A DNA stretch of 64,000 bases. Source: Hydnum rufescens UP504 (taxonomy: Eukaryota > Basidiomycota > Agaricomycetes > Cantharellales > Hydnaceae). The notes beneath the pieces are model-generated. The model had not been told where the DNA came from and did not search any database. It was given only the letters and a program-made list of their open reading frames with translations. Below are positions 10,386 to 43,270 of this stretch, piece after piece. A program made the translations under genes and the position numbers. Position 1 is the first letter of the stretch; each line of letters starts with the position of its first letter. The DNA is taken from NCBI GenBank assembly GCA_014904985.1, contig MU128933.1:62001-126000 (forward strand), read 5' to 3'.

Positions 10386-10744
10386 GTAGTCTCGGTTCAG
10401 TGTTGGCATCCTTTGTACTTGTATGTGTGTGTGTTTCGGCGCCGTCTATCTTGTATTGCATCACCACTTGTATGTTGAATTGAGCTATTCCATATTCATT
10501 GAGCTTACAGCTAACGGAGTATTTCTTTGGGGATCGTGATAAAGTATACTTCGCAGGTTCATCATGGCTAGACGATAATAAGACGTTTGCTAAGGCTATC
10601 GACCTCATCTTCTATGTCTCCAGCCATGTACGCGTTGTGGTCCCCCATACGTAGTTCTGCTCAATAATGGGCAAAATATAAAGCTGATTTTCTTCGAGTT
10701 CGAGTTGTGGGGAAAGGGATCAGTGGAGGAAGGCAGGTCTTTCT
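10386..10744. other. Intergenic DNA upstream of repeat copy A
   Basis: Holds the 3' UTR of the DUF1479 gene, including a short tgtgtgtgtg run near 10424, and the left flank of the repeated element. The RNase H sequence that flanks copy B is not present here. Confidence 0.4.
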
Positions 10745-13690
10745 ACTGGACGAGGTGAATTGCAGTTGAGGACGACGGCAAAGACGGTCCGGACGCGGAC
10801 CTTTTTAGTGAACAACACCTACCGCCACTGCCCTCACAATGCCCCCGCTCCCTTCGAGGAAGTAGATCATCTTGGGAAAGGGGACAGGGCGAGATCCTCA
10901 TTGTCGTTATGGGGCGAGCAATGTATTTTCCAGGCGGAGTCCGTGAAATCTCGTCTCACGGCATCGAGTGATCCTCTGGTTGGTTTAGTCGAACATACAT
11001 AAACGGAGGCACAGATACTGGGACGGGTCCTCAGATATGCTGTCTTCAATCTGATGGTCTTCGAAGCCACCAGGAGGGCACTAGACTTGGCAGATCATCA
11101 GAGACCATCATAGCGAGCTTCTGTCCCTGCTGCTCCCCTCTTTTATGGGCGCGATCACAAGTTGGGTTCACTTCAGAACAATAACTAGTGCAATAGGGGA
11201 ACGGGACGATGCAAGTCGAAGACGACTTCACTCTCACATCGTCCGGTTCTCTGGTGCATGAAGAATCCACTACAAGGCAGCTCTATAGGCCGCTTAGACT
11301 AGCAGATCGATGATCTCAGACGGCGAAACGCATTTCTGGCCCCGTGGCGTTGGGCCAAAGAGACACGCCTTGCTGGTAAACCTCATGTGCAAAGTTTGCG
11401 CTGCGAGCGTCGGCATGTAGGCGAATTGGAAGCACCGCTACCCGGCGCCGCCGGACTTCAGCCAGAGATGTCCTCACCGGTCATGTGGGTGTTCATGACG
11501 GGTGAGGACACCTTTCAAGTGTCTCTAGGTCTCTTTTGCACAGGTGCAATAGATTTATTCACAGAGCAGACACTGACACGGGCACGACAGCCAACCAACA
11601 TACGCGACATTTCCTTATATCTCTGCCGAAGCATCCTGGGGACACGATATCGCTTTGTCGAGTTGCTCTACTGCCTGTTGCGAATCTTCTTGGTGCTCTC
11701 CAGCTGCGGATAGGCAAATAAGGGTGGGGAACGATACCGGCAGCATGCCAGACGCATGCATTCAAATCTGCTGGCATCCACAGCTGTAGCATCAGGCGAA
11801 GACTTTCGCTAGGATGCATCACGATAGGCGGCCGCAGGACGAAACGCCACACAGAGAATGAGACTGTCGCGGCACTCAGAAGCTGGGGGATTGAACCTGG
11901 AATAAACTCCAGGGTCGTCTGGTCAACAAACGTGGAAGCGTTGGTGTTTACAGATGCCCACTTTAGCGAAGGCTTTCACTGGTGTGCTGACATGTTCTGC
12001 CTCCAGGTTGATGGTGGCGGGTCGTTGCTTCCGAAATCGTCAGCTACGTTGGTGTGGTTGCCACCACTGCACGCCTTGTGCCTCTGCTACATAGTGGATC
12101 TGTCGCCTATGGTCAACGATCGCCTCGTATTGTCTGTCCCCCGCTATGCCCTGGGTTCAGCTACGTCGGATGCCGTACAGGTACGGATTTGGATTTGAGA
12201 TGTTCCCTGGGGAGAAATTTTAGTAAGAGACGCTTTCGGCATGCTTTCGGACTAACCGTATATGACATCTGATCATTATTCCTTTCTACCTAGTTATCCT
12301 AAACTGAATGCAGAAATATACGTGCCCTTCCGTTGCACGTCAAGGTGTATCCCCAATCGACCCGCGTATAGTCCTGGGTGGGCGGATGTGTTCGGCGGGG
12401 ATGGAAACACTCCATCGGCGGAGTTTCTTCTCCTGGAATATGTACGTTCAGGGTAACGCTCTTCTTTTGTCCTTCATGAGCCCATAAATCACTTATCTAC
12501 GGGCATCTGTATATCTCAAATGTGTCCTTTAGAAACCGAGTCCTTGGCGAAACTAACAAAATGATGAGCACGCCCCTTCATGCACGTATCCTTCTTCGAT
12601 CAGAAGCCTGTGCCATTAAATTCTCATATGCGAGATGCGGGCCCATGTCACTATTCACTAGCTGGCCCGATCGGGGCTGCTATTCCACTACCGTTGCAAC
12701 GGCCGTTTTCGCATATTCCGAGAGCTTCGGATAGCCGTCGGATTTCTTGCCACTGACATATTTGGCTGCCCCAGGAAAATTCTGATTTATCCAGATAGAT
12801 CCCGCTTCCGCTTGTGCCTTCGCCTGTCGACCCGGATGCGTCGTGGATGTCCTACATTGGAAATGCTTGATCGTAGGGTGAGATCAGAGAACTAAGGGGG
12901 AAGGTTTCAATCTCAAATCAGAAGTCTTTTTTTTTCCCCTCGTAACTAACGAATTAATCTCGTTTGATCTCGCCCACCGGAAGACGCCACAGAAGCGAGC
13001 AAGCTACAGATGCAAACTTGGATAAAGGTTTTTCGTGCGGTATCAGAGTGAAGCAAACAGACGTTGTTGGTCGAGCCGGATGCAAACGCTGCCAAGACGC
13101 GAACAATGGCCACACGAAATTGCCACAAAACGTTCCCAAACTGTGCTGGGGAGGAGTGACAACACCGGTCCATACACCTCTAACCCTTCCAGGCGGTGTT
13201 GCTTCGACCGATGGCCTACGATCTCTGCATCAAGATCTAAGCGCCTGGATGACAAAAAAAGAGACGTGTGGCGAGTAGGCGTCATGACCAATCAGCTGAT
13301 GCTCCAAAAACAAAGAAAAAACCTTGCTTACAGCCTTTGTACGTGATTCCTGGGTGCCGTCTCAGATTCGATGTTCCTTTTTGGGAGAGGTTTTGCAACG
13401 AGTGAAGGCGGCTCGAGGCACCCTATCAACATCACCCTCGTGTGTGTGAGAAGCCAGATCGTTCACCCCCCGTCATTATCGCCTCGACGCTTTCGTCTTG
13501 CCACTCCTGGGTTGTACTGGTCCAGTGGCGTTTCCGTGGACAAAGGGTTGGGACTTCCACTCTTTCCATTATTGGTTAGGGAAATAACACCACAGTGCGT
13601 ATTTACCCGAAGAATGGCACTAAATGGCGGGATTCTTTTCCCATTCCGATTGTCAGACTCTGGCATTGGCCGAAAACGCCACCTGTGGGG

Positions 13691-13698
13691 TATAAAAG
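13691..13698 (+). promoter_or_regulatory. TATA box inside repeat copy A
   Basis: TATAAAAG within ggggtataaaagtgcttgat, conserved in copy B as tataagag on the other strand (about 39975-39982). It is followed by a long CT-rich tract (about 13732-13815), the usual leader of strongly transcribed fungal genes. This suggests an internal promoter reading toward the hammerhead. Confidence 0.6.
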
Positions 13699-14538
13699 TG
13701 CTTGATCTTTGAGAAAGACAGCCCATCAGCCCCCTCCCCTCTCTCGTCTCAACACTCTCGTCTCCTCTCTCTCTCCTTTCCGCTCTGCTCTTCTCAGCTC
13801 CTCGACTCATCTCTTCCCTCTATTTGGCTCACCGTATTGTCTGTCTGCCCGACGACACTCCTCCGTGCGCCTGGATGGCCACTAGCTCCTCCTCGTCTCC
13901 TTTCATGCTCTGGGAGCCATTGTTCCTCCGTGTGCCACCACCCTCTCGCCATCATTGCTGGTGCTCTCCGACTCTCTCTGAGGTCTCTCGCCTAGACGAC
14001 ATCGGCATCAGTATAATCAGAGGTGGTTCCTCTGACTCCATGAGGACTTTAGTCCTCCGCAGGCGTCCTCTGAGTCCCAGCATCCCTTCAGGTTGGCAGC
14101 TCCGGAGGGAGGATCAGCCTTGGGGGTGTTGGGGGAAGTGGTGCCAAACCCAGCTACAGGCAAGCTCATCCATGTCTCTAATAACGTGATATGATGCTGA
14201 AGGGCCTTTCGGATTTCCTTTAGTGGGTATGATTACGCTAAATTGGCAGAGGCCAACGGTCGGCCTGTTTGGGTTGAGGTGCTTCTCAATCCGCAGGTCG
14301 CGATGTGAGGTCGTGTGGTCGAAAGATAAGTTTTCTCCTCTTCGCTGGTGTAACCTCCAGGATACTGATGGGCATACGTTAGCTGTCCCCCTCAGACGTG
14401 TGTTGGTGCTCCATGGCCCCGATGGGGCAGCCCTATGCCTGTGACAGTCTTGGCCCCCCCGGGACCAAGCTGGCCATGGGTGTGAGGTTGCAACTGGTGG
14501 ACCATGATGTGTCGCCAACGGTGCGGCCAAGGACTGGG

Positions 14539-14564
14539 CAAAGCGCCTGCGGGCGGGCGCTTTG
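14539..14564 (+). other. GC-rich hairpin upstream of the ribozyme
   Basis: caaagcgcc and ggcgctttg form a 9-bp perfect stem around an 8-nt loop. The hairpin is also present, slightly changed, in copy B. It lies 44 bp upstream of the hammerhead on the same strand, and its function is unknown. Confidence 0.6.
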
Positions 14565-14608
14565 TTCAGTGTGGCCTGTTAGCCAGCACGTCTGTCATCG
14601 AAGTTAAC

Positions 14609-14674
14609 GGGGGGCGGCGAAACAGGTGGACTTCGCCACCTGTCGTCGCTCAGCGGCCTGATGAGCCGTCCCCC
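14609..14674 (+). ncRNA. Type II hammerhead self-cleaving ribozyme motif, copy A
   Basis: The 66 nt fold as a complete hammerhead. The 3' half of stem II (14609-14618) pairs with 14665-14674 over 10 bp with one G-U. Core GAAA (14619-14622, in CGAAAC) follows. Stem III (CAGGTGG/CCACCTG) closes a 6-nt loop at 14630-14635. The cleavage triplet GTC is 14642-14644. Stem I is GTCGC/GCGGC around a TCA triloop. Core CTGATGA is 14658-14664. Stems I and III are closed and stem II holds the free ends, which makes this type II. The predicted cut is after C14644. Every nucleotide I know to be essential is present. Activity is inferred from the fold; with a triloop on stem I, the loop-loop contact that speeds natural hammerheads may be absent. 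Confidence 0.85.
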
Positions 14675-14735
14675 ATGTGTTCTGGACCTTTTGGGTTCAA
14701 ACTGTTTAATTGCCACGCTTGCAAGGTCACTTCCA

Positions 14736-15002
14736 CCCTGAATAGTATCTAGTCATCGTGCAGATTTGAGCATTCCGATTGGCTCTCCTGTGTGATTGCA
14801 TTTCTTACCTCTTTGCCTAATTCTTTTTCTGCTAGGGTGGGCGCCAAGGAGTACACCAGTAGCAAGATCATAGTGTGCTTTCTCCTGCCAGGATGTCGAT
14901 TATCCTTGCCGAGCTCGAGACATTCACGGCTCTCGAATCTGTACAGGTAAAATGCCAAACTGACATGCCAAAATGGGCAAAGGGCACTCTGAATGCCCTG
15001 GC
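14736..15002. other. Flank between repeat copy A and the palindrome
   Basis: No gene or repeat is recognised here. It does not match the sequence beyond the corresponding end of copy B. Confidence 0.35.
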
Positions 15003-15182
15003 CATCTGTAGTGCAGCTAATGCAGTGCTCAATCTGCAGTTACCCTGCACTGCAGTGCGGACGCCCCCAAGCGACCGTGAGGCTCATGGGACTTCTCATG
15101 AGCCTCACTGTCGCTTGGAGGTGTCCGCACTGCAGAGCAGGGTGACTGCAGACTGAGCACTGCATTAGCTGCACTACAGATG
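15003..15182. repeat. 180-bp near-perfect palindrome (MITE-like foldback)
   Basis: Two arms of about 86 bp, starting catctgtagtgcagctaatg and ending in its reverse complement, match at about 80 of 86 positions. They meet at a short centre in gaggctcatgggacttctca. No clear target-site duplication flanks it. The form fits a miniature foldback element; a structured RNA precursor is the alternative. Because it reads almost the same on both strands, similar chance open frames appear in each direction. Confidence 0.8.
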
Positions 15183-16389
15183 AACCTTGGTATGACTATA
15201 ACTTTCGTGAGCACACTTTCCCTCCGAGTCCTGCCCTATGACGGTCCCGAGATAAATTACTCTACTGTATAATATATATTTTATAAAATTCGTCTGTGGC
15301 GGTACCTATGGGGAAGGCCATCCACCAGAGGACTCCTTATGTTAGGAAGAAAAGCCCAAATGGGGACACAACAGCACGCAGGGGATGCAGATATTCTAGG
15401 GATCCGGCCGATTCTTTGAGATCAGTCTTCCCTCCTGGCGCTTGTTTCATTTCATGTATCGGCTTAGCGTGGAGCCTGAGGGGACAAATTGTGGTGGAAC
15501 CCTTGGAACATGATGTATTTGCCACATCAAATTAGAACATTGATGCAAGGGAATGTACGGACAGAGAACAAATGGCAGTGACCAGTCTGGGTGTCCAACG
15601 AATATGACTATGATTGCAGTGTGATAGTGGTGTACCGTGATACCAGTAATGAAAGTGCCCAGATCGGTTGCAAAAGTCCTGAGGCGGGGCTGTTATCCAG
15701 TATATAGACAGCCGAAACGTCGTGGAAATGGATATTCAAAGGGGGGGCGCCAGTCGAGACAACTGGAGAGCGGAAGAATTAACAAAGAGGAGCGACAGGT
15801 GAGTAATACTGGAACTCGGATCAGGCAGAGGCCTCTCTCAGAAATGTACTTGGCTCTCAAATAATACGTTTTTCGAAGCCCCTGGCTCCGACTCGTATGG
15901 CTTCCCACCAGCTCCCATATGGAGGCGACAGTGATCGAAACCTCATTCTCAGTAAGCTAAAATGGGCAGCGGGACACATAGATCACGGATGGGCCCATAC
16001 ACAAACGAGACCAGGCTCATGCACATAGGACGAGGGCCAAAGAACACTTTGATGGCAAATAAAAAAGATGGCAGAGGTTTCCCACATAACTAGTGAGAAA
16101 GCGACGGGCAAGGTGGATTGACAAATATTTGCGACAAGCCCAAAACAACGTACAGATGAATATGGTTTGGCTCCATCTGCGAAAATTACATAGTGACGTC
16201 CCGAAATTGAAAGATCTATCGAGGAAGTGAGCCAAGTGCAGCTGAAAGCCTGCAACCATAGCTGCGTGAGCAACTTGGCAAACCACGTCAAAATTTTTGG
16301 GGATTAGCTGAAGCGGAAGCCTGTGTCCCGGCTTCTGCCGATTCCCACGGTTGTATGGGATAACTTGTTGCCTACAGAAAGTAAAATTT
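15183..16389. other. Gene-poor relic DNA
   Basis: About 1.2 kb without a supported gene. Short open frames on either strand show no domain or splice-consistent extension. Confidence 0.35.
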
Positions 16390-17542
16390 TACACAGGCAA
16401 CAGAACATGAGCGCTATGAATCTCGCTCAGGCGAGCTTGAAACGGTCTCTGGTTGTACGGTGTACTATGCCACGACGTCCAGTTGTCTTCTCGAAACGGA
16501 CTATGAGCTCTCTCCGCCAATGGCTATGTGCCCAAATCCGACCTGCCTTGGGCGGTACGTGGGAGACATTTTATCTCAACATTCGCCGATTTAATCCAGC
16601 TCTTTCGTTTACTCGCTGTAGATTGGTTCGGCAATAGGGATAGTGGTTGGGGTGAGTACACTGAATACGACGCATATGAGAAGAACGGACGTCATCACGA
16701 TCTCAAAAAATTGGACGCACTAGCTTGCTATGGGTGTATAGAATGCCTTCTTCTGTCGCCGACCATCATGCCGAGGAGCACGACGCGAAGCACGCTGCTA
16801 AGCACACAGAAAATCCAGCGCTGCAGCCACACCCCTGGTAAGCCCGCAACGTCATCGTCACAAAATGGAAGGCCGATTTATCGTGGACAGAAAGAGGACG
16901 GTGAAGCCGAAGCCGAAACACTGCAAGTGGAAATGAATCTATTAATGGATCGGTAGGTCTTGAATTCCAATCCATTCTATACTGAAGTGTATTCATACAT
17001 GACCAGGAAGTGCCCGAGGTCGTAGGGGGTGCAGGACGACTTGGAACTTCCCGGGACCTTGGAGGGAGAGTCCACCGTAGATGCGGCAAGAACGGATGAG
17101 ACGGTGGATTCTATAAAAGAAGCCCTTGTGCGTTAACTCAGCGGGTTCTCTCCGTCTTTCACATCTAGTAGATTTTGACAATGTGAATCCTGCAGGACTC
17201 CAGCCTATCCGCAGTGACGAGGGCTTCAGAAAAAGAAAAATCCTCGGATTCAGATGACTTCGTCAAAATTGAAAAGGAAGACGCTAACCCGACGCAACAG
17301 GTACGTCTACACGCCCTCATTCTCTCATCTTTATATTGGTACTGTTATTGCGTTTTCGCTTATTCCGGATGTACGATACTTCGCCCATTCTCGCTCCCCA
17401 TCTCGTTCTCACTTGTTGGGGGTCTTACCCTACGAAATGGGACACCAGACTCACTACACTCTCACCCCCGTCCCAACAGGATACCGACGTCACTACATCG
17501 AAGAAAACGACCAAGAAGGCGGCCTCTTCGGAGAAGAAATAG
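16390..17542 (+). pseudogene. Coding-like debris of an unrecognised gene
   Basis: Several protein-like stretches lie in different frames without clean joins. They are ADHHAEEHDAKHAAKHTENP near 16760-16820, GEAEAETLQVEMNLLMDR ending near 16954, then after a possible intron VDAARTDETVDSIKEALVR (to about 17137), and KSSDSDDFVKIEKEDANPTQ ending at about 17300. A possible last exon, DTDVTTSKKTTKKAASSEKK, precedes a stop at 17540-17542. The acidic/Lys-rich character and usable splice sites suggest an old gene. A frame change is needed near 17035. I cannot name the family, and part of this may be chance. Confidence 0.3.
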
Positions 17543-31294: not shown

Positions 31295-33642
31295 ATGACA
31301 ACCCAGTTTGAAGGGATCTACCATGGCCTTGGCACGGATGTGGGAGGTTAGATCTGCACTCACCAATGCTATACCATCCAATTGAAGGATTTTTCTCTTC
31401 TCCCAGAATTACGTCTAGCTACTATCGGTTTGGGCTGGAAGTCGGTCACGACCGGAAGTCAGGTCACGGTCGCGGCAAGCGATATAAAATACGTCCAATG
31501 GCTTAGGTGTGCCTGTCTCGCGTTGGCCATGTGCGCGTCAACGTGCTTATGACACCTACATGAAAGGGTGGCGCGCAACTTCCAGTTACGAATAATCCTT
31601 AAAGATAATCGTCGACGAGAAACCTTCGATGGCTTCCAGCGAGAGGTGCGCTTTCTAATGTCGGATTAAAATGCTGGATCTCATTTGGGGAGAATTAGGA
31701 CCACGAAAAGATCTCGCACGTTGTAAAACAGCACTACAATGTGATCCTAGAGACCAAAGACGTTAGTCTCAAAGGGTGGAATTGGGGGGCTCTGGATGTT
31801 CAAGGTCTGCAACTTATACATTTTGGGGCCCTATTTGTTGACACTCACGTTGCCCCAGGCTCAGACCTTGCATTTCTGGTGTCAAATAAGACAGCCTTCG
31901 AGGTTCCCCTGTCACAGATCTCCAACTCGAATATCGTTGGAAAAACAGAAGTGTCCCTCGAATTCGCAGCCCTTGAGAAGAAAAACCCGTCCACACCTAG
32001 TGCCAGTAAACGGAAGGATGCAGACGATGAGCTGGTCGAAATGCGCTTGCATATACCGGGAACGCACTACGAAAGACCAAGAGGACGAGGATGGAGAGCA
32101 TATGGATGTGGATGACGATGATGAGACCCCGGCTGCCCAGGCATTCCACGACATGATCAAAGAGAAGGCCGATATTGGGCAGGTCACGGGAGAAGGTATT
32201 GCCAGCTTTGCGGAGGTCACCGTACTCACACCAAGGTATACATTTCATCTGCCTTCTTTATTATGTTTCCTGACTTGGGGACTCTGCAGAGGACGGTATG
32301 ACATTGACATGTTCCCGGCATTCCTTCGGCTCCGTGGAAAGACTTACGACTATAAGATTCTCTACACTTCTATCACTCGACTCTTTTTGCTTCCCAAACC
32401 AGATGATGTCCACATTATCTTTGTGGTGAATTTCCTTCCTGACGGTTGATCGGTCACTGTCTCATTTTCCCACGTACCCTTTAGGTTGGATTAGACCCGC
32501 CAATACGACAGGGTCAGACCCGTTACCCGTACCTTGTCATGAGCTTCAGCCGGGATGAGGAAGTCGAGGTGGATCTTCAGTTAGACGAGTTAGGTTTTTC
32601 AATTGTGGAGATCATCGTGCCATGATCATGTTAACACCTACAGGGCGACAATCGAGTCCCAATACAATGGAAATCTCAAGAAGCATTATGAAGCGCCGAT
32701 ACACGAGGTTATTTCTGCCGTCTTCCGGGGCCTCAGTGGGAAGAAAATCACAGCACCTTCTGGGTCTTTCACGAGGTCAGGAGTGACAGTTCCCCAGGCT
32801 AATGTGATATCTGATAATAGTTTGGCACATAGCCGAGATTCTCATACAAGCATCAAAGCCAATTTGAAGGCCGCACAGGGTGATTTGTACTTCTTGGAGA
32901 AGGCGCTATTATTCCTGGTCAAGCCTACGACCCTTGTGGAGTACACAGACATAGCGTCTGTCGTCTTCTCCCGGTATGAGTGACTTCTCTTGCCCCTTAT
33001 CCCCCAGCACTGATGCTTCAATCACGCTCTAAACGCAGGGTCGGAGGTGGCATGGCGTCCGCAAGGACGTTTGACTTGAAGATCCTGCTGAAAATGAGTC
33101 CAGAAATCGTTTTCACCTCCATCAACAAAGAGGAACACGAGCTCGTTGAAGAATTCCTGAAGTCGAAGAAACTTCGGGTGAAGAACGAGATGAACGACGA
33201 TATAGCAGCAGCAGCAGGTCTTGACAGTGACAGTGACGAGGACATGCAAAGTGTTGCTTCTGACGGGGAGGATGCCCCTAAGCCCAGACCTGCAGCCGGG
33301 AATGATGAAGATAGCGAGGAGGGTACGTATTCGAAGCCTTCCGACGTGTCCATGGCTCATCCTGGATTTGGGGCGATTTCGGATCTAGATGATGACTTCC
33401 AGGCTTCGTCCTCGGATTCAGGTTCGCCCTCAGCATCTGAGTCTGACGACGGGGAGGGTGCTGTCACAGCCAGTGACGATAGTGGGGATCGTGATCTCAT
33501 CAAAAAGACTAAACCAAAGAAAACCAAGGAGAAAAAGGACAAGGTGGACAAGGCAAAGGGTTCGAAGGAGAAGAAGGGGAAAAAACCTGTTGATGATGGG
33601 AATCCTCGGCCAAAGAAAAAGGCGAAAAAGCAAGACGACTGA
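31295..33642 (+). CDS. POB3: FACT complex subunit POB3 (SSRP1-like)
   Basis: Part of the FACT histone chaperone with SPT16, acting on nucleosomes during transcription and replication. Exons in order: [93 protein letters not shown]; then an acidic linker [20 protein letters not shown]. The middle domain has [39 protein letters not shown] and [20 protein letters not shown]. The C-terminus is acidic, then Lys-rich ([12 protein letters not shown]...KKKAKKQDD). It lacks an HMG box, as fungal POB3 does. One oddity: between RLHIPGTH and [10 protein letters not shown] (32061-32072) the frame shifts by one base with no room for an intron. Otherwise every exon is intact, so an assembly error is possible. 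Confidence 0.85.
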
Positions 33643-38309: not shown

Positions 38310-38561
38310 TCGAATATTCGATTAGATCTGTGAGCGATGACGCCCCTAATATCCATTGTAACGGACTACTGTATCTCGAATTCGTCCTCACCCGCTTAGT
38401 AATCAAGGGGAGCTCTCGCTGCGAATACCGTAACTCTCACTATGATCCCCCAAGGGCCCAACATTAGTCCATTCCTAGGCTCCACACTAAGCCTGGTACA
38501 TGAAATGAAACAAGCACCAGAGAAGGGAAGACTGATTTCAAAGAATCAGAACTTGTTACCA
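38310..38561. other. Short intergenic flank
   Basis: Holds the 3' UTR of the preceding gene and the left flank of repeat fragment C. Nothing else is recognised. Confidence 0.35.
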
Positions 38562-38774
38562 TCGCTCAGCAGCCTGACAAGCCCTCCCCCATGTGCTCTG
38601 GAACCTTGGGTCTAAACTATTTAATCTAAAAGAGTCATATCTAATTTATCTTTGGCAATGGCATGCACTCTTAGTCTCATATGTAATCCCTTTAATCCTT
38701 GAGGTTAAAATTAGTCTGACAATCCACACAATATGAATTCTATGGTGGCAGAATCTATGGGAAAGGCTGATCAT
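38562..38774 (+). mobile_element. Tail fragment of the repeated element, copy C
   Basis: Begins tcgctcagcagcctgacaag, which matches the element only from the predicted hammerhead cut site onward. It continues cctcccccatgtgctctgga and through about 130 bp shared with copy B past the gtttaat point, up to the palindrome centre. The ribozyme core is damaged (CTGACAA for CTGATGA) and the CGAAAC half is absent. It is joined to copy B tail-to-tail. Confidence 0.7.
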
Positions 38775-38981
38775 CCTTTCCCATATATTCTACTGGTCAA
38801 AAATGAACCCCATAGAATAGATACTATGCGGACGACCAGACAGATTTTAACATCAGGTATCAACGGGATCACATGAAATTACATGCCAAGGATAGATTGT
38901 GCATGCCTTCTGAGATTAAACAGTTTGGAACCCGAGGGCTCCGGACGACATGGGGGAGGGCTCATCAGGTCGCTCGGCGAC
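38562..38981. repeat. ~420-bp imperfect palindrome formed by the tails of copies B and C
   Basis: The centre is near 38774, in ctatgggaaaggctgatcat read against its mirror tcctttcccatatattc. Matching blocks on each side include gaggttaaaatt / attttaacatc, ggcatgcac / gtgcatgcc, and cctcccccatgtg / gacatgggggagg. The arms are about 70-75% identical by eye, so this is an old inverted junction and not a recent foldback artefact. Confidence 0.7.
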
Positions 38982-39018
38982 GACAGGTGGCGAAGTCCAC
39001 CTGTTTCGCCGCCCCCCC
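38952..39018 (-). ncRNA. Type II hammerhead self-cleaving ribozyme motif, copy B
   Basis: On the minus strand: G-run with CGG (stem II 3' half), CGAAAC, stem III AGGTGG/CCACCT with an identical ACTTCG loop, GTC, stem I GTCGC/GCGAC with a CGA triloop, CTGATGAG, and stem II 5' half CCCTCCCCC. The core is identical to copy A. Stem I replaces the T-G pair of copy A with T-A, so pairing is kept. Stem II has one C-C mismatch. The predicted cut falls between 38982 and 38981. Confidence 0.83.
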
Positions 39019-39974
39019 GTTAACTTCGATGACAGACGTGCTGGCTAACAGGCCACACTGAACAGAGCGCCCGCCCGCAGGCGCTTTGCCCAGTCCTTGG
39101 CCGCACCGTTGGCGACACATCATGGTCCACCAGTTGCAACCTCACACCCATGGCCAGCTTGGTCCCCGGGGGGGCCAAGACTGTCACAGGCATAGGGCTG
39201 CCCCATCGGGGCCATGGAGCACCAACACACGTCTGAGGGGAACAGCTAACGCATGCCCATAAATATCCTGGAGATTACAACATCAAAGAGAAGAAAACTT
39301 ATCTTTCGACCACACGACCTCACATCACGACCTGCAGATTGAGGCGTACCTCGACCCAAACAGCCGACTGCTGGCCCCTGCGTGTCAGTCTACCTTAATC
39401 GTATCCACTAAAGAAAATCTGAAAGGCGCTTCAGCCTCATATCACGTTCCTGGAGACACGGATGAGCTTGCCTGTATCTGAGTTCGGCAGCACTTCCCCC
39501 AACACCCCCAAGGCTGATGCTCCCTCCCAAGCCGCCAACCTGAAGGGATGCTGGGTCCCAGAATGTAGAGGACGCGTACAGAGGACCGATGTCCTCATGG
39601 AGTCAGAGGAATCACCTCCGATGATACTGATGGCGACATCGTCTAGGCGGTAGACCTCAGAGAAAGTCGGAGAGCAGCAGGCACGACGGTGGGAGGGTCG
39701 TGACCATATAGGCGCACAGAGGAAGAATGGATGCCACAGCATGGTGGGAGAGGACGATGAGGGGCTACTGGCCATGCAGGCGCATGGAGGAGTGTTGTAT
39801 CTGTCAGAGGGGAAGAACAGCGGGCAGAGAAACAAAGCGGGGGACCAAATAGAAGGAAGAGATGGGCTGAGGGCTGAGAAGAGCAGAGGGGCCAGAAGAG
39901 AGACACATGGAGGCGGGGAAGCTGAGAGAGAGGGAGGGAGGGCTGATGGGCCATCTTTCTGAAAAATCAAGCAC

Positions 39975-39982
39975 TCTTATAC
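39975..39982 (-). promoter_or_regulatory. TATA box inside repeat copy B
   Basis: tataagag on the minus strand within cctgtggggtataagagtgc, the counterpart of the box at 13691 in copy A. Confidence 0.5.
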
Positions 39983-42552
39983 CCCACAGGTGGTGTTTTC
40001 GGCCAATGCCACAGTTTGACAATCGGAATGGGAAAAGAGCCCCGCCATTTAGTTCCTTTCTTCCGGTAAACACGCACTGTGCTATTTCCCTAACCAATAA
40101 TGGAAAGAATCGAAGTTCCATCCTTTTGTCCACAGAAACGCCACTAGACCAGTACAACCCAGGAGTGGCAAGACGAAAGCCTCGAGGCGATAATGACGGG
40201 GAGTGAACAAGCTGGCTTCGACACGCACGAGGGACGATGTCGATAGGGTAGCTCGAGCCACCTCACTCGTTGCAAAACCTCTCCCTAAAAGGAACATCGA
40301 ATCTGAGACGACACGCAGAAATCACGTACAAAAGGCCGTAACCAAGATTTTTTTCTGTATTGCAGGGACATCAGCTGATTGGTCATGAACTCGCCACACG
40401 TCTCTTTTTCATCCGGGCGCTTAGATCTTGATACCGCTGTCTTAGGCCATCCGTTGACAGAGGGAAAAAAATCGACGATCACTCCCGATTTTAGATTGAC
40501 ACCTTCCTCTAGTTATCCGATCTCATCCACAGTCAAGCATTTCCAATTAGGAGATCCACGATGCATCGGGGCTGGAAGACGAAGGGACAAGTGGGATCTA
40601 GCTGGACAAATCAGAATTTTCCTGGGGCAGCCAAATATGTCAGTGGCAAGAAATCCGACGGCTATCTGAACTTTCTCGGAACGGGCGAAAACGACCGTTG
40701 CAACGGGCAATGGAGGAGCAGCCAATATCGGGCCATCCAGTGAATGATGACATGGGCCCGTATCTGGCATATGCGAATTTAATGGCACAGGATTCTGATC
40801 GAAGAAGGACGTGCTCACCGTTTTGTTAATTCCGCCAAGGACTCGGTTTCGAAAAGACACATTTGACGTATACAGATGGCCATAGATAAGTGATTTATGG
40901 GCTCATGAAGGACAAAAGAAGAGCGTTACCCTGAGCGTGGATATTCCAGAAGGAACTCCGCCGATGGAGTCTTCCGTCCCCGCCAAACACACCCTCTCAC
41001 CAAAGAGTACACGCGGGTCGATTGGGGATACACCTTGACGTGCAACGGAAAGGCACGTAGATTTCTGCATTCAATCTAGGGGAACTAGCCAGAAAGGAAT
41101 GATAATCAGATCTGACATACGGTTAGTGGGAAAGCATGCCGAAAGCGCCTCTTACTAAGATTTCTCCTCAGGGAACATCTCAAATCCAAATCCGTACACC
41201 TGTACGGCATCCGACGTAGCTGAGCCCCAGGGTACAGCGAGGGATAGACAATACGAGCCAGTCATTGGCCATAGGCGACGGATCTGCTGTGTACCAGAGA
41301 CACAGGGCGGGAAGCGAGGACAACCGCACCAACGTAGCTGACGATTTCGGAAGCAACGAACCGCCACCATCAACCTGAAGTCAGAACATGTCAGCACGCC
41401 AGCGGAAGTCTTCGTTAAAGTGAGCATCTGTAAATACTAACGCTGCCTCGTTTGTTGACCAGAGGACCCTGGAGTTTATTCGAGGTTCAATCCCCCAGCT
41501 TTTGAGTGCTGCGACAGTCTCGTTCTCCGTGTGGCGTTTCGTCCCGCGGCCGCCCACCGTGATGCATCCTAGCGAAAGTTTTCGCCTGATGCTGCAGCTG
41601 TGGACGCCAGCAGAGTTGAATGCACGCGTGTGGCTGTCGCCGACGACTCCACCCTTATTTGTCCATCCGCAGCTGGAGAGCACCAAGAAGAACCGCAACA
41701 GGTAGCAGAGCACTCGACAAAGCGATATCGTGTCCCCAGGGTGCTTCGACAGAGATCTAAGAGAATGTCGCGGATGTTGGTTGGCTGTCGTGCCTGTGTC
41801 AGTGTCTGCTCTGTGAATAAATCTATCGCACCTGTGCGAAGGAGACCTAGAGACACTTGAAAGACGTCCCCACCCGTCATGAACACCCACATGACCGGTG
41901 AGGACATCTCTGGCTGAAGTTCGGCGGCGCTGGGCAGCGGCGCTTCCAGTTCGTCGCCTAAATGCCGACGCTTGCAGCGCAAACTTCGCATATGGGGTTC
42001 ACCATCACGGCGCGTCTCTTTGGCCCAACACCACGCGGCCAGAAATGCGTTTCACAGTCTGAGATCATCGATCTGCTAGTCTAAGCGGCCTATAGGGCTG
42101 GCTTATAGTATGCACCAGAGAACCGGACGATGTGAGAGTGAAGTCCTCTTCGACTTACATCGTCCCGTTCCTCTATTGCATTAGTTATGGTCCAGAAGTG
42201 ATCCCAACTTGTGACTGAGCCCATCAAAGACGTGGGTCAGCGGGACAGAAGCTCGCTATGACGGTGTCTGAAGATCACCAAGTCGAGTTCCCCCCCGCTG
42301 AGTTCTAAGACCATCATATTGAAGAGAGTATGTCTGAGGGCCCGTCCCAGCATCCGTGCACCCATTTGTGTGTATCCCACTAAATCGACCACAGGATCAC
42401 TCGATGTCGTGAGACGACATTTCACGGACTCCGCCTGGCAAATACATTGCTCACCGCGTAATCACGATGAGGACCTCGTCCTGTCCCCTTTCCCAGGATT
42501 ATCCACTTCCTCGAAGGGAACGGGCGGCTTGTGAGGGCGACGACGGTAGGTC

Positions 42553-42921
42553 TTGTTCACCAAGAAGGTCCGTGTCCGGACCGTCTTTGCCGTCTTCCTC
42601 AACTGCAATTCACCTCTTGTTCTTGCGTCGAGTGTCCCCTCAAACGAACCGGGGGACTCGTTCAAAATGGAATGGGCAGCTACTCATCGTAGCTTTTCCC
42701 GTTCCGTAGAACAGAGCACGGACCATCTTCTAGTCTACACAGATAGATCTCTGACTGTAGAGCAAGGCGTACGACGTACGGGCACTGCGGGATTTAGCGC
42801 GATCACGTACTACCAGGACCAGATTGTACGTGAGACCTTCGGGGCCCTAGGACAAAAAGCTGAAGTGTATGACGCCGAGATGGAGGCCCTAGCCGCCATC
42901 CAGCAGCCTACTGCGGTATAA
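42553..42921 (+). pseudogene. RNase H domain fragment of a retroelement
   Basis: Reads HLLVYTDRSLTVEQGVRRTG ... GFSAITYYQDQIVRETFGAL, then AEVYDAEMEALAAI. The first catalytic Asp (YTD) and the Glu of the AExxA-type helix (DAEMEAL) fit the RNase H domain found at the C-terminus of fungal LINE-type polyproteins. The Gly of the usual TDGS is Arg here. The frame opens upstream into copy B (antisense to its ribozyme strand) and stops at 42921 after the second motif, so the domain is truncated. No reverse transcriptase motif was found next to it. Confidence 0.6.
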
Positions 42922-43270
42922 ATGCACAGATACAGCTCTTGGGTCGAGTAGAAGGACCTGCCTTCCTCCCCTCATCCCTTTGCCCACGACTCCAAGAAAA
43001 TCAGCTTTTATATTTTACTCCCATTATTGAGCGGAACTACTCGATCCGTATGGGGCGTATCATCTGGGCCGCAATGCGTACATGGTTGGAAGCATCAAAT
43101 AATGAGATGGGGCGAAGAAAGTACAACGAGCCGCCTCAAATTGTATGCAAATTTTATGAGTAATACGATTACAGCACACGCACATATAGAAATCGCTCCA
43201 ACCAAGGGATAGATCGATGAACTGGATGCGGGGTCGCAGGGAATGAAAAGGAGAGGCTCGGGGTAATGAA
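42922..43270. other. Flank between RNase H fragment and MCM6 pseudogene
   Basis: No gene. Contains the second copy of the 38-bp repeat at 43133-43170. Confidence 0.35.
43133..43170 (+). repeat. 38-bp dispersed repeat, second copy
   Basis: gcctcaaattgtatgcaaat and following bases; the partner of 36017-36054, in the same orientation. Similarity drops quickly outside. Confidence 0.5.

Follow-up and report, generated by a model that had tools for sequence, protein, structure and literature searches.

We analyzed a 64,000-nucleotide stretch of the Hydnum rufescens UP504 genome, referred to here in its full length as the window, and found that its plus strand carries a complete type II hammerhead motif (copy A) within a degenerate repeat that is present again in the window as copy B and on another contig as copy C. 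The features of the locus are listed in Table 1. Copies A, B, and C all contain the hammerhead core (CUGANGA, GAAA, A15.1-U16.1, and H17) together with three stems, and the layout is that of type II, with stem II open and a loop capping each of stems I and III. The minimum-free-energy fold of positions 14606-14676 is the hammerhead fold itself (-41.5 kcal/mol, z -4.94), and none of 200 shuffled sequences was as stable. A first-pass annotation of this DNA had called a complete type II hammerhead here with stems of 10, 7, and 5 bp, a call that is borne out by sequence, by fold, and by covariation between the copies. On re-reading, the stems came to 10, 8, and 5 bp, stem III consisting of the seven pairs already described plus A15.1-U16.1. 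The position of the GTC (GUC in RNA) triplet, and with it the predicted cut after C14644, also agrees with the sequence. By eye, copies A, B, and C share no consistent pseudoknot between loop I and the tail of the motif; loop I reads UCA, CGA, and AAA across the copies, and three loop-tail pairs are possible in copy B only. Therefore, cleavage may be slow.

Table 1. Features of the hammerhead locus and its copies (window positions unless a contig is named).
Feature	Position	Strand	Description or evidence
Type II hammerhead, copy A, open stem II	14609-14674	+	sequence, Rfam 25.2 bits, fold, three compensated pairs
Copy A stem II	14609-14618 with 14665-14674	+	10 bp, one G-U
Copy A GAA	14619-14621	+	
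Copy A stem III	14622-14629 with 14636-14643	+	8 bp including A15.1-U16.1
Copy A GUC triplet	14642-14644	+	C17 is C14644
Copy A stem I	14645-14649 with 14653-14657	+	5 bp, one G-U, 3-nt loop
Copy A CUGAUGA	14658-14664	+	
Predicted cleavage site	14644/14645, after C14644	+	GUC triplet; right edge of conserved block 14635-14646
Conserved structured RNA unit, predicted mature RNA	14377-14644	+	268 nt; conservation, fold z -4.98 (14370-14644)
Helix P1, 5' strand	14377-14384	+	pairs with 14602-14609 in the precursor; consensus fold, energies
Switch strand GCUGUYCCCC	14382-14391	+	near-copy of stem II 3' strand; predicted partner 14609-14618 after cleavage (P1')
Degenerate low-copy repeat around copy A	10651-17346	+	homology to B (10651-14710) and C (10772-17346); insert at about 14711-15409
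Type II hammerhead, copy B	38952-39018	-	C-C mismatch in stem II
Conserved unit, copy B	38982-39251	-	270 nt
Repeat around copy B	38467-43040	-	homology
Hammerhead, copy C	contig C31:270197-270263		

Comparison with covariance models, which the first-pass annotation had proposed as a check, gave a divided answer: the type II model of Rfam (RF02276, Hammerhead_II) matches copy A with 25.2 bits (E 0.0042 in a 301-base search, 0.011 on 821 bases, and 0.097 on 7,001 bases), but the score misses the gathering cut-off of 37 bits, and a gathering-threshold Rfam scan of the window accordingly returned nothing at all. Copy B scored 21.9 bits against the same model (E 0.63), and nothing was listed for copy C at E<=1. 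An Rfam scan of the whole copy A repeat returned a single ribozyme family match, on the plus strand. When the genome was searched by Rfam family at E<=10, no match was returned and the three known copies were missed too, so this search is without power here. A strict type II descriptor, composed after the sites were already known, found copies A and B only in the window and had no matches in 126 Mb of sequence simulated with a first-order Markov model to have the same composition as the window. A looser pattern run genome-wide gave 20 matches (13 + 7) versus 32 (15 + 17) in a reversed control, and 3 of the 20, namely copies A, B, and C, show the stems when the listing is judged by eye.

DNA and pattern searches of the genome (63.2 Mb in 539 contigs) recovered the three copies, a count that the search method makes a lower bound, with one hammerhead in each. 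Between copies, 3 of the 23 hammerhead pairs are altered on both sides with pairing kept, and no such change was seen in any of six slid controls. This covariation was equalled by 42 of 500 shuffles when the hammerhead was considered by itself, so the support it lends is modest, and both covariation and divergence rest on three sequences from a single genome. Changes are distributed unevenly over the motif: stem III and its loop, which would stay with the 5' product, are invariant over the three copies; stem I and its loop, which would leave with the 3' product, differ between copies with pairing retained; and CUGAUGA and the next base are identical in all three. Two 30-mers taken from the unit and from stem III had no matches among viral contigs, one of the two had none in a collection of genome contigs, and a 298-nt query matched no phages or plasmids. 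Copies A and B (10651-14710 and 38952-43040) make up an inverted duplication whose matching arms are separated by 24-31 kb.

The hammerhead of each copy terminates a highly structured, apparently non-coding unit of about 268 nt. The upstream domain of 232 nt, which was absent from the first-pass annotation, and the hammerhead form one conserved unit. Only 12 of its 268 gap-free columns vary, versus 223 of 1109 and 426 of 2030 in the flanks. With gap columns excluded, divergence in the flanks is 13-15% for the pairs AB, AC, and BC, the adjacent stretch 14250-14375 included; it is 1.3, 5.2, and 3.9% in 14376-14608 and 0, 2.8, and 2.8% in 14609-14644, then 13, 23, and 23% in 14645-14674, and 15-19% between copies in 14675-14710. 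Past the predicted cut, divergence is thus back at the level of the flanks, the catalytic core excepted. The contrast between 14376-14608 and the flanks is significant (Fisher p 1e-10), and every other 233-column window upstream holds at least 29 variable columns, versus 12 here. We also fitted a two-edge likelihood change-point model, blind to the cleavage site, to variable and invariant columns, allowing left ends no earlier than 14000, right ends no later than 14710, and blocks of 30 columns or more. The fit placed the conserved block at 14377-14645, with edges within 2 log units at 14376-14396 on the left and 14635-14646 on the right. Since conservation stops where the cut is predicted, the RNA to the left of the cut would be the part that is kept. 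Conservation of this unit in three old copies suggests a host-selected function rather than a dead element. The 12 variable columns split into 2 for copy A, 0 for B, and 10 for C, an unevenness that may reflect relaxed constraint in C or gene conversion between A and B.

RNAalifold on copies A, B, and C yielded a consensus of 111 pairs, 99.1% of whose 332 cells are paired. The fold begins with helix P1, in which CGUUAGCU, with 14377 as its first base, pairs with AGUUAACG; P2 follows, then a three-way junction bearing a rod of about 120 nt and a hairpin of about 65 nt, and directly after it, with no spacer, the hammerhead. In copy A the outermost P1 pair shares G14609 with stem II. On this consensus we counted four pair changes on both sides, three in the hammerhead and one upstream (RNAalifold's own count is 3); this number was equalled by 15 of 500 shuffles, and none of six slid controls had any such change. 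In copy C, pairing is lost at three of the upstream pairs. The fold z was -4.98 for the plus strand (14370-14644), -2.89 for the minus strand (14377-14644), and -1.08 for the 277 nt preceding the unit. Apart from the hammerhead, the upstream domain gave only chance-level matches to Rfam at E<=10.

The unit also contains a possible switch. When the RNA ends at 14644, its predicted optimum shifts from P1 to an alternative helix, P1', in all three copies. P1' is formed by GCUGUYCCCC (14382-14391) and the freed stem II strand GGGGGGCGGC (14609-14618). The 5' product is predicted to favor P1' over P1 by 8.7, 7.3, and 9.0 kcal/mol in A, B, and C, and the precursor to favor its own optimum over P1' by 8.2, 6.6, and 5.3 kcal/mol. 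A 10-bp complement of this kind arose in 302 of 3000 shuffled domains, or about 10% by chance. With folding unconstrained, the precursor optimum is more stable than the hammerhead fold by 0.9 kcal/mol in copy B and by 2.2 kcal/mol in copy C, where the hammerhead is missing from it. These energies come from a model that leaves out tertiary contacts.

The surrounding repeat is a degenerate three-copy segment of about 4-6 kb; it begins some 4 kb before the ribozyme, and copies A and C continue for about 1.9 kb past it. The longer BLAST blocks show 81-86% similarity, versus 77% for the downstream portion common to A and C. The first-pass annotation had placed the hammerhead in a fungal repeated element, and the sequence is indeed repeated, in three copies; its being transposable found no support, as six frames of copy A (10500-17500) contained no Pfam domain at E<=1, reverse transcriptase included, and self-comparison of the three stretches gave no direct terminal repeats at E<=1e-3. 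Pfam scans of A, terminal-repeat comparison, and copy count thus left a transposon with no support beyond the three copies themselves. A coding remnant across 10760-14680 is opposed by stops common to all three copies in all six frames, 19-28 per frame, and by codon-phase counts, which show no clear pattern over the repeat. One plus-frame stretch, 13710-14192, is stop-free in all copies, without a phase pattern, and short exons are possible. Overall, the 4 kb that precede the ribozyme lack a coding signal.

Several further structures were observed in and around the repeats. An unrelated repeat, parts of which match 11 other contigs, is inserted directly downstream of hammerhead A at 14703-15409, and it carries a 91% inverted repeat at 15003-15182. 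Rfam microRNA models matched at 15037-15148, all below their cut-offs, and we traced these matches to the hairpin of the inserted repeat. Copy B has an inverted repeat of about 420 nt at 38562-38980 (arms of about 210 nt, about 66% alike, fold z -17.1). It begins with the 3' part of the hammerhead, its outer end is a few bases from the cleavage site, and its far arm contains a broken half-motif, CUGACAA. Copy C has traces of either arm, and copy A has them at a borderline score.

From these observations, we consider it likely that the locus gives rise to a non-coding, structured RNA of about 268 nt and that cleavage by the type II hammerhead generates its 3' end, with release by strand exchange as a possible additional step. 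Formation of the 3' end of a non-coding RNA by a cis-acting hammerhead is the most economical reading: selection on the mature RNA would explain both edges of the conserved block, and selection on the ribozyme alone is insufficient, since stem III and stem I are treated differently. In the scheme that we infer, for transcription, cleavage, 3'-end formation, and strand exchange alike, a precursor would be transcribed across both ribozyme halves, with its upstream domain closed by P1 and abutting the open stem II. The hammerhead would cut after C14644, leaving an RNA with a 2',3'-cyclic phosphate, which hammerhead chemistry generally places on the upstream product. The 3' product, consisting of stem I, the CUGAUGA segment, and a single stem II strand, would be thrown away and the upstream product kept. 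Because stem II is about 10 bp long, release of the 3' product may need help from the near-copy strand at 14382-14391; this strand may recapture GGGGGGCGGC, and the mature RNA would gain P1' as its closing helix. More tentatively, and as something we regard as possible rather than probable, the locus could represent a new class of fungal RNA, in which a selected RNA of about 268 nt receives a hammerhead-made 3' end and cleavage triggers an exchange of P1 and stem II for P1' that ejects the 3' product. The hammerhead would there replace the usual cleavage and termination machinery, and the exchange would lock the mature fold. The RNA upstream of the cut may thus belong to a class not described before, which one genome cannot establish.

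We find it rather unlikely that the locus is instead a decayed non-autonomous retroelement, retrozyme-like or Penelope-like, whose hammerhead processed its transcript, with the unit alike in all copies as the element's working RNA or homogenised via cDNA of the cleaved RNA. Hammerheads of eukaryotic repeats do reside mostly in retroelements, according to the available excerpts of PMC3088659 and PMC6155905, and the three dispersed copies, the inverted repeat of copy B with its start near the cut, and the identical right edge that cDNA conversion would yield are all compatible with such an origin. Conversion via cDNA of cleaved RNA would likewise imply cleavage in the cell. However, Pfam domains (copy A) and direct terminal repeats were absent, stops are shared, only three copies were found, and dead copies would be expected to decay evenly, which the unit does not. 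Still less probable is that the unit has stayed similar through gene conversion between the copies instead of selection and that the match of edge and cut is coincidental. As conversion would have it, A and B are inverted relative to each other at a distance of 24-31 kb and differ at 2 of 268 columns, with 10 changes in C; yet copy C is also conserved relative to its own flanks, both edges coincide with independent structural marks (the start of P1 and the cut), and stem I covaries just outside the block. That the motif is a functionless look-alike or inactive relic is very improbable, despite the missed Rfam cut-off, the lack of a clear tertiary contact for the 3-nt loop I, and the judgment in the excerpted PMC3088659 that a putative human type II motif was a likely false positive, given that the core is retained in three copies while its neighbors change with compensation, that chance yielded 0 matches in 126 Mb, and that the block stops at the predicted cut.

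Comparison of this locus with known systems relies on excerpts of the papers cited. The first natural type II hammerheads were described in PMC3088659, which reports them as very common among bacteria and as occurring in some archaea; a pseudoknot between loop I and the tail is common in them, not universal. The motif resembles these (RF02276) in its open stem II, looped stems I and III, and core, and differs in its location in a fungal nuclear genome, in a 10-bp stem II joined to a structured domain, in a 3-nt loop I without the common pseudoknot, and in a score below the Rfam cut-off. In fungi, the same source reports hammerheads in Yarrowia repeats and finds the vast majority of eukaryotic repeat hammerheads to be type I; PMC6155905 describes hammerheads in retrozymes and Penelope-like elements, with type III in plant retrozymes. 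Our locus shares with Yarrowia repeats, retrozymes, and Penelope-like elements a sequence with several genomic copies. Unlike them, it is of type II and has a conserved non-coding unit that ends at the cut. It has one hammerhead per copy and none of the direct terminal repeats that in retrozymes carry a hammerhead each, and, in six frames of copy A, no reverse transcriptase domain as in Penelope-like elements. Fungal viroid-like RNAs, ambiviruses, and ribozyme-bearing mitoviruses are described in PMC11721086, and they resemble our locus in combining a highly paired hammerhead RNA with a fungal host. They are circular replicons, with ribozymes in each polarity in ambiviruses, whereas here we have DNA copies with the ribozyme on one strand and, in a Pfam scan of copy A, no sign of the polymerase gene of ambiviruses. 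The HDV-like ribozymes of fungi, reported from a comparison of fungal genomes (PMC5640933), are likewise self-cleaving, structured RNAs, cleavage being predicted in our case; they belong to the HDV class, and the word hammerhead is absent from the main text of that paper. In the titles and abstract openings surveyed in the open-licence literature, no type II hammerhead was reported from the nuclear genome of a fungus, a weak negative. Comparative support would set this eukaryotic type II hammerhead apart from the human candidate that the excerpted PMC3088659 judged a likely false positive. For a genomic hammerhead outside retroelements and infectious RNAs, the evolutionary footprint at this locus makes 3'-end maturation of a defined RNA a directly testable function.

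Other contents of the window were also noted. A tRNA scan (ARAGORN with the bacterial code) listed none, and one open reading frame matched mitochondrial IF3 with 29.8 bits, below the Pfam cut-off of 33.8. This name, that of the FACT subunit described next, and the size of the genome would fit a fungal source. Positions 17062-17542 contain the end of a gene or a remnant of one, acidic and then lysine-rich, which is present in truncated form in copy C and had no other match in the genome or the PDB. Between copies A and B, at 31796-33642, lies a gene for a subunit of FACT similar to SSRP1/POB3, whose PDB matches are POB3 and SSRP1 chains.
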